Shown: positions 60,787 to 61,203 of the stretch, piece by piece
How the letters are laid out: the number at the start of each line of letters is the position of its first letter
Position numbering within the stretch: the first letter of the stretch is position 1
Assembly (NCBI GenBank): GCA_016787645.1
Contig: JAEUUF010000022.1
Coordinates: 434,001-498,000, forward strand
Origin: Cyclobacteriaceae bacterium
GTDB lineage: Bacteria > Bacteroidota > Bacteroidia > Cytophagales > Cyclobacteriaceae
Reading direction: 5' to 3'
DNA length: 64,000 nt
Notes under the pieces: model-generated
The model's database searches: none
Told to the model about the DNA's origin: nothing
Seen by the model: the letters and a program-made list of their open reading frames with translations, nothing else
Translations under genes and position numbers: made by a program

Positions 60787-60859
60787 CGCGGGGTGGAGCA
60801 GTTGGTAGCTCGTTGGGCTCATAACCCAAAGGTCGCAAGTTCGAGTCTTGCCCCCGCTA
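60787..60859 (+). tRNA. Initiator tRNA-fMet (anticodon CAU)
   Basis: A 73-base tRNA that folds fully: acceptor CGCGGGG/CCCCGCT, D stem GAGC/GCTC, anticodon stem TTGGG/CCCAA around CTCATAA, T arm GCAAG-TTCGAGT-CTTGC, discriminator A. The first acceptor pair is an unpaired C-T and the anticodon stem ends in three consecutive G-C pairs, both hallmarks of initiator tRNAs. CCA is not encoded. Its 3' part is repeated at 61141-61203. Confidence 0.96.
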
Positions 60860-60862
60860 CAA
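60806..60862 (+). repeat. Direct repeat copy 1 (inside and after tRNA-fMet)
   Basis: Two blocks shared with copy 2: an 18-base block at 60806-60823 (tagctcgttgggctcata) and a 29-base block at 60834-60862 covering the T arm, acceptor 3' strand and the first bases after the gene. Confidence 0.85.
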
Positions 60863-60868
60863 GTAAAG

Positions 60869-60890
60869 AGCGGCCAATGGCCGCTTTTTC
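60869..60890 (+). terminator. Terminator after tRNA-fMet
   Basis: AGCGGCC (60869-60875), AAT loop, GGCCGCT (60879-60885), then five T. It lies between the tRNA and the nuclease ATG at 60892, so nuclease expression would depend on read-through or a hidden promoter. Confidence 0.8.
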
Positions 60891-60891
60891 T

Positions 60892-61119
60892 ATGTTTACG
60901 GTTTACGTGATATATTCTGAAGCCTTCGGGAAGATATACGTTGGCTACTCTTCAGATCTTGAGTCAAGACTAAGATCACACAATGAATTAGCAACCAAGG
61001 GTTGGACCATCAAGTTTAGGCCGTGGAAACTGATCCACTTCGAATCCTTCGCATCTAAAAAAGATGCCTTAAAAAGGGAAAAAGAACTCAAGTCTGCCAC
61101 TGGAAGGAGATTCATTTAG
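60892..61119 (+). CDS. Small GIY-YIG nuclease family protein
   Basis: 75 residues from the ATG at 60892. The GIY-YIG core reads VYVIYSEAFGKIYVGYSSDLESRLRSHN: both tyrosine motifs (VYVIYS and IYVGY) and the catalytic-type Arg (SRLRSHN) are present, followed by the family-typical LIHFESFASKKDALKREKELKS. Such UPF0213/YhbQ-like domains are single-domain endonucleases. The frame is open back through the terminator and the whole tRNA to 60751, so a tRNA-encoded N-terminal extension is possible but unlikely. Flanked by tRNA-fMet and a tRNA-fMet relic. Confidence 0.85.
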   Translation: MFTVYVIYSEAFGKIYVGYSSDLESRLRSHNELATKGWTIKFRPWKLIHFESFASKKDALKREKELKSATGRRFI

Positions 61120-61140
61120 GCATTAGTCTTGAACAATCCC

Positions 61141-61200
61141 TAGCTCGTTGGGCTCATATCCGCCAAGAGGCGGACGCAAGTTCGAGTCTTGCCCCCGCTA
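61141..61200 (+). pseudogene. Truncated, hairpin-interrupted tRNA-fMet relic
   Basis: It matches tRNA-fMet from the D loop onward, but the 5' acceptor strand and half of the D arm are missing, and the anticodon-stem 3' side plus most of the variable loop (10 bases) are replaced by a 16-base perfect hairpin at 61159-61174 (TCCGCC, AAGA, GGCGGA). The T arm and acceptor 3' strand are exact. It cannot form a tRNA. Confidence 0.85.
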
Positions 61201-61203
61201 CAA
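61141..61203 (+). repeat. Direct repeat copy 2 (tRNA relic)
   Basis: Shares an 18-base block (61141-61158) and a 29-base block (61175-61203) with copy 1, 335-341 bases downstream of it. Confidence 0.85.

Follow-up and report, generated by a model that had tools for sequence, protein, structure and literature searches.

In the 64,000-nucleotide stretch of Cyclobacteriaceae DNA analysed here (the window), a short GIY-YIG nuclease gene lies between an intact initiator tRNA gene and a broken, hairpin-bearing copy of the same tRNA. We think it rather probable that this arrangement is a minimal, integrase-less, homing-like mobile element of tRNA genes, whose nuclease would target one tRNA gene and cut it. 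Across related loci, the association of nuclease and tRNA genes is strand-locked, tRNA pieces lie on the opposite side of the nuclease gene, the nucleases track the anticodon, and the Met-type copies carry a hairpin. In addition, empty and relic sites occur, the arrays are polar, and the nuclease genes show purifying selection. The tRNA-linked GIY-YIG genes appear to belong to minimal mobile elements of a family so far undescribed.

The initiator tRNA locus and its nuclease

The features of the locus are collected in Table 1. The first-pass annotation had described a 75-residue GIY-YIG gene bracketed by tRNA-fMet and a partial repeat of its 3' portion with 18 and 29 identical bases; both the coordinates and the matches are confirmed, the second block being extended by two further identical bases past position 61201 to give the 29-base match. 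The intact tRNA has a GGG/CCC anticodon stem, a feature characteristic of initiator tRNAs. In the 4.0-Mb genome of the organism (stated completeness 99.83%), a DNA search with fMet as query (E ≤ 0.001) finds this gene, its broken copy and nothing else, so that the working gene is presumably the upstream one. Judged from sequence, the presumed target gene is kept functional: the intact tRNA called adjoining the nuclease gene is the sole intact fMet match, and apparently the sole initiator tRNA gene, of the genome. That the intact tRNA keeps the presumed target counts against the homing-like model, in which the host would have to tolerate the enzyme.

Table 1 Features of the initiator tRNA locus (positions in the window)
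Feature	Positions	Strand	Basis
Intact initiator tRNA-Met(CAT)	60787..60860	+	tRNA calling; Rfam tRNA, 64.9 bits
Terminator-like hairpin and T-run between tRNA and nuclease start codon	60869..60889	+	by eye
GIY-YIG nuclease ORF, 75 aa	60892..61119	+	Pfam GIY-YIG, E 4e-18
Copy of tRNA nt 20–37, reaching the anticodon loop	61141..61158	+	18/18 identical, E 2.7e-6
Hairpin TCCGCC-AAGA-GGCGGA in place of tRNA nt 38–47	61159..61174	+	compensatory changes in relatives
Copy of tRNA nt 48–74 (T arm, 3' acceptor strand)	61175..61201	+	27/27 identical, E 1.1e-11
Second terminator-like hairpin and T-rich stretch, 3' of the broken copy	61211..61243	+	by eye

From the tRNA to the end of the broken copy, the element spans about 340 bp. 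The nuclease is the only gene recognised from the tRNA to its copy, which agrees with the earlier claim that the element has no integrase. Integrase islands in tRNA genes have the tRNA 3' end duplicated at both borders. The present element resembles them in having the tRNA 3' end at both borders, but it is only about 0.34 kb long, has a hairpin inside the copy and contains no recognised recombinase gene, on which ground an integrase-type tRNA island was rejected. A group I intron in the tRNA was also rejected, as Rfam at gathering thresholds detects two tRNAs and no intron in the whole window. The E-values of the two block matches, together with the unrelated-tRNA control described below, dispose of a chance repeat. 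The hairpin located 3' of the broken copy is possibly the original terminator of the tRNA, displaced by the insertion.

The nuclease is a bare GIY-YIG domain without a separate DNA-binding domain. AlphaFold2 models the 75-aa protein as a confident, compact fold (mean pLDDT 95.8, pTM 0.81), and Y5, Y16, G18, R26, N31 and E63, presumably of the catalytic-type residues of the GIY-YIG domain, are among the invariant residues of a 39-row alignment. The nearest solved chains by sequence, which share the GIY-YIG domain, are UPF0213 proteins (E 6e-5 and 2e-4), followed by SLX1 (E 0.012). A bare 75-aa domain with no DNA-binding domain to give specificity is a further point against the homing-like model. 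The nuclease genes are under purifying selection, with dN/dS of 0.05–0.19 in 25 same-label pairs, these being the pairs with usable synonymous divergence among 112. P0001 has five weak phage matches (at most 42.1% identity) and matches in nine plasmid records (at most 36.4%), and the best segments at eight viral-contig loci reach 35–48%; phage or plasmid cargo was rejected on these values.

The hairpin within the tRNA copy

The window hairpin is a perfect 16-nt sequence, TCCGCCAAGAGGCGGA, located between the two tRNA blocks. What it replaces in the tRNA is the anticodon arm's 3' half together with the variable loop. The two-sided layout given by the first-pass annotation stands, but the copy that it called damaged carries a specific, conserved hairpin and not random damage. 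Met-type copies have a hairpin of the form TCCGnn..nnCGGA in place of one half of the anticodon arm, at a position shared by initiator and other CAT-type copies.

All six base pairs are formed in 55 of 65 extracted segments; in 1000 shuffles of the right arms, this number averaged 29.8 and never exceeded 37. The 65 include at least three chance matches (L004, L016 and L024), which are among the ten segments that are not fully paired. The segments were extracted from 217 distinct domains through anticodon-loop to T-arm anchors behind the gene, pairing not being required. In an earlier list of 74 hairpins, where pairing at five of six positions was required by construction, stem positions 5 and 6 are compensated, C-G having changed to T-A 11 and 8 times and once to G-C. 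The 25-nt T-arm region of the copy is identical to that of the tRNA of its own locus in 31 of 49 cases, with one mismatch in 5 and at least two in 13, some of which differ through a second hairpin, whereas the mean between loci is 8.65 mismatches. The fully paired stems and their compensation thus indicate a stem that is maintained, and the tRNA sequence behind it follows that of the host.

Palindromes are found in an arm or loop of many copies, namely TCCG..CGGA in Met and Asn copies, TCCCGA..TCGGGA in Gly and Ala copies, and CCTGCC..GGCAGG in several Arg copies; Leu(CAA) has a longer palindrome in its T loop. Each broken tRNA copy of L038, L078, L026 and L017 has two hairpins. Moreover, a TCCCG..CGGGA hairpin is present in the D-arm region of relic 5' tRNA copies located upstream of tRNA-fMet in L104 and L122 and upstream of tRNA-His in L150. 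No nuclease gene was found for these three relics, which were perhaps left by a different element family.

In the broken copy, the hairpin interrupts the presumed target site, which is uninterrupted in the intact tRNA. The conservation and compensation of the hairpin exceed the need of a target-breaking insertion, and the hairpin probably does something beyond plain homing. An intact tRNA together with a conserved hairpin is not expected from plain homing, and the enzyme may act on the hairpin. The element could then be driven by the hairpin: a structure-specific, SLX1-like nuclease would nick the hairpin of the element in single-stranded or cruciform DNA and thereby start copying into the tRNA gene, with the tRNA pieces as homology guides. 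Its mode of action would then be closer to that of REP/IS200-type hairpin systems than to homing. The stem, conserved, compensated and constant in position between initiator and other CAT-type copies, is in line with this explanation, as is a bare GIY-YIG domain with UPF0213 and then SLX1 as its nearest solved chains. The similarity to SLX1 is weak (E 0.012), however, and the tracking of the anticodon by the nuclease subfamilies suggests that the tRNA is recognised. Furthermore, the pattern TCCGCCNNNNGGCGGA is not dispersed, occurring once in the 4.0-Mb genome and in 0 of 100 shuffles of the window; its single occurrence also led us to reject REP-like genome-wide dispersal of the window hairpin. 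We consider a hairpin-driven element unlikely, and keep the homing-like element as the preferred reading.

tRNA-linked nuclease genes in related genomes

The genome of the organism has nine GIY-YIG matches. The layout recurs at two more of its loci: the tRNA-His locus has a nuclease gene, a duplicate of the tRNA 3' end and a further, partial copy of the nuclease, and the tRNA-Arg(CCG) locus has several partial copies behind the nuclease gene. The survey of related genes comprises 98 loci, composed of 29 + 60 stretches from the best matches listed (58 genomes including its own) and the nine own-genome matches; only best matches being taken, the sample leans to high-scoring genes. Domains were de-duplicated by sequence, comparison across genomes was made in the nearest-neighbour test only, and the locus sets overlap (L185 is the G024 locus, and L239 is the window).

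A same-strand tRNA lies within 150 nt of 54 of 89 domains without an NPxWxD tail (subfamily A) and of 0 of 18 domains with this tail (subfamily B; Fisher, 5.6e-7). This sister subfamily, which would be of the UPF0213 type in our reading, thus differs from the window gene in lacking the tRNA link at that distance. The nearest tRNA within 700 nt is on the opposite strand in none of the 107 domains of both subfamilies. Some of the 35 subfamily-A domains (of 89) without a tRNA within 150 nt are distal array units, lie near contig ends or are B-like by eye. As a separate observation, a subfamily-B gene in L003 (reverse strand, ~1050–1800) is located 458 nt behind a Ser-Arg-Pro tRNA cluster, with repeats of the GAAGCAATCCCG type before it, and may represent another kind of palindrome-linked GIY-YIG gene. 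At L005:1200–2000, a GIY-YIG gene with no called tRNA is found amid many palindromic repeats (of the GGTGCCTGAGGCACTCGAAGGCACC and CTGGCTTCGGGAGC..TCAGCCAGC types).

The other flank of the gene carries a partial copy of the same tRNA, at most 500 bp away, in 51 of the 54 tRNA-adjacent domains (47 of 50 without the four positive rows, from L044, L068 twice and L080, that stem from mis-called or neighbouring tRNAs), whereas unrelated tRNA queries give any match in 33 of 162 cases, about a fifth. When matches of at least 15 nt are counted, the numbers are 46 of 54 versus 14 of 162 with other-type tRNA queries. The tRNAs mis-called by ARAGORN are in L044, L068 and L176, and two of the three domains without an opposite copy have less than 400 bp of sequence there. 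GIY-YIG genes elsewhere thus show the link to tRNA fragments whose absence would have told against the first-pass reading. The order of parts takes two mirror forms, either intact tRNA, gene and 3' part, or 5' part, gene and intact tRNA. The tRNA-flanked nuclease layout is upheld, with the correction that the gene can have the intact tRNA before or behind it. Three Ignavibacteria loci (L172, L177 and L218) have a 5' tRNA-fMet copy, the nuclease gene and the intact tRNA in this mirror order, and in L218 it is the opposite half of the anticodon arm that carries the TCCG..CGGA hairpin.

Nuclease subfamilies track the anticodon class of the associated tRNA. Among 52 labelled domains from 29 genomes (genus and order), the nearest relative in another genome has the same anticodon label in 33 of 45 cases (shuffled mean 1.68, maximum 9), and the other 12 nearest neighbours have another label, some via mis-called tRNAs. 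A 131-domain labelled tree, with 40 label changes against a mean of 69.1 and a minimum of 65 in 100 shuffles, was set aside in favour of this test, as most of its Met rows had been picked for their likeness to the query. A search by protein similarity only, with the window protein as query, yielded 79 named loci from the best 80 of 172 relatives, mostly in several orders of Bacteroidota, with three Ignavibacteria and one Balneolaceae member. A CAT-anticodon tRNA is found within 900 nt in 61 of these 79 loci (46 initiator, 15 other), and within 150 nt in 49 of the 61. Seventeen of the 79 have no tRNA within 900 nt, one is uncallable, and none is located at a tRNA of another called type. In the 30 fetched phylum loci, other tRNAs (Asn, Phe and Arg) appear only at weaker matches of at most 54% identity. 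On the Met-type tree, the label changes between initiator and other CAT 9 times (shuffled mean 15.9), so that elements apparently pass from one to the other.

Proteins matched to the anticodon of the adjacent tRNA would also suit a system acting at the RNA level, in which the protein cleaves or regulates this tRNA, the broken copy serves as decoy or antidote, likewise as RNA, and mobility is incidental. The T arm and the compensated stem are indeed kept in many broken copies. Many broken copies, however, carry one side of the tRNA only, and the arrays, relics and patchy occupancy described next fit DNA mobility. We know of no GIY-YIG ribonuclease of a tRNA-acting kind, and regard this explanation as very unlikely compared with the homing-like element.

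The fMet search in the genus covered 40 genomes, of which 39 matched and 30 were fetched. A GIY-YIG ORF or part of one is present at four of the 30 fetched fMet loci (L099, L113, L117 and L119) and, fragments included, at 10 of 30 fetched tRNA-His loci. Next to fMet, relic copies of the tRNA unaccompanied by a nuclease gene occur in L104, L106, L112, L122 and L127, and by eye in L102. L104 (G014), the sole relative with both flanking genes matched, has no nuclease but keeps relic tRNA pieces, and is therefore a vacated rather than a never-filled site. At that sensitivity, no trace is seen at most of the other loci, but L103, L106 and L119 end close to the tRNA. Comparison of relatives for filled and empty sites had been proposed with the first-pass annotation; with four of 30 loci filled and others empty or relic, the arrangement is not universal.

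Tandem units form 43 arrays, 33 of which have a tRNA on one side. The unit proximal to the tRNA scores higher in 19 of these, lower in 4 and equally in 10 (binomial p 0.0026, ties left out). Arrays and elements are present in isolate genomes and in single-contig chromosomes, and are thus not only assembly artefacts; among the isolates that have arrays are Niastella caeni (L170), Pedobacter psychrophilus (L171) and Longitalea luteola (L184). L250, G114:C34 and G353:C1 hold tandem arrays of at least five similar units at near-constant spacing and are good candidates for copy-number variation. The unoccupied sites, relics, decaying arrays and dN/dS values point to active, selected elements.

The protein shares 69–72% identity with the best loci of other orders. 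This was dropped as a hint of transfer, as a truncated gene of its own genus has about as much, 70% over 60 aa; the full-length Met-type genes of the genus share 53–65%. On the Met-type protein tree, which is poorly supported, taxonomic orders are clustered (21 changes against a shuffled mean of 38.7, with 0 of 200 shuffles as low). Such clustering favours ordinary, vertically inherited genes beside tRNAs, with the tRNA fragments as chance duplications. Against this stand the opposite-side copies in 51 of 54 domains (control 33 of 162), the unoccupied sites in the same genus, the precise replacement by a hairpin and the arrays, and we hold ordinary vertical inheritance to be highly improbable.

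Proposed mechanism and related systems

The initiator-tRNA homing-like reading of the locus is supported, and we infer from the arrangement of the sequences that the protein cuts the tRNA gene, that the element is copied by recombination and that the hairpin has a role in it. In the homing-like model, the small GIY-YIG nuclease would recognise one tRNA gene through its anticodon or T-arm region and cut it. Recombination with an existing copy of the element would mend the break and copy in a cassette of terminator, nuclease gene and hairpin-bearing tRNA piece. An intact tRNA would thereby be left on one side, with the former tRNA end displaced to the other, as in the observed layout. The displaced copy, with a hairpin that replaces part of an arm or lies in a loop, would be neither a tRNA nor presumably a target. 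Re-cutting of the intact copy may add units beside it, by which older units would be pushed off and decay. The nuclease subfamilies associated with single anticodon classes would be specific for them.

Among openly licensed PubMed Central papers, a set outside which most subscription papers lie, we found no account of a tRNA-linked GIY-YIG element. The closest phage system is SegB of T4/T6, a free-standing GIY-YIG homing endonuclease reported to cut inside tRNA genes, to prefer the motif RAWTSGAAC and to drive tandem amplification with tRNA-Tyr; no favoured tRNA isotype is reported there (PMC13096335). In our reading, the reverse complement of this motif resembles the T loop. SegB shares with the present elements a GIY-YIG nuclease beside tRNA genes and tandem units (PMC13096335), but it is phage-borne, whereas here the genes are chromosomal, encode a bare 75-aa domain in anticodon-tracking subfamilies and include a hairpin-bearing tRNA copy in the unit.

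A second parallel is provided by the fungal mitochondrial mORFs of Allomyces and Glomus (atp6, atp9, cox2 and nad3). In these, an endonuclease ORF inserted in a gene brings a replacement 3' end and the native 3' end is displaced downstream, the Glomus atp9 case being GIY-YIG (PMC3630166). As there described, these mORFs are alike in that a nuclease insertion replaces the gene end and displaces the native one, and unlike in having mitochondrial protein-coding targets and a diverged replacement end (PMC3630166). The present elements have bacterial tRNA targets, ends that often match (31 of 49 identical) and a conserved hairpin. Homing with mORF-like rebuilding of the tRNA, combined with SegB-like re-cutting that would yield arrays (PMC13096335, PMC2988022), appears to be the most economical account.

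In a broader form, which we put forward tentatively and with more doubt than confidence, the elements would be phylum-wide, one-gene parasites of tRNA genes of ~0.34 kb, with anticodon-specific lineages, a conserved hairpin that is their functional end and is either recognised or made by the nuclease, and age-ordered arrays that grow by units added beside the functional tRNA. If true, they would constitute a class of mobile element distinct from homing endonucleases, transposons and integrase islands, and there is a real chance that the tRNA-gene element is a class of its own. The elements may also account for tRNA-derived fragments, and for contig breaks, in genomes of Bacteroidota. They offer a natural set of compact nucleases, most of them tied to one tRNA gene, for studying how specificity arises in a minimal GIY-YIG domain, and they make tRNA genes as targets of homing elements in cellular chromosomes a directly testable question. 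Parasitism of essential tRNA genes may be the way in which a bare 75-aa nuclease gene persists with no integrase.
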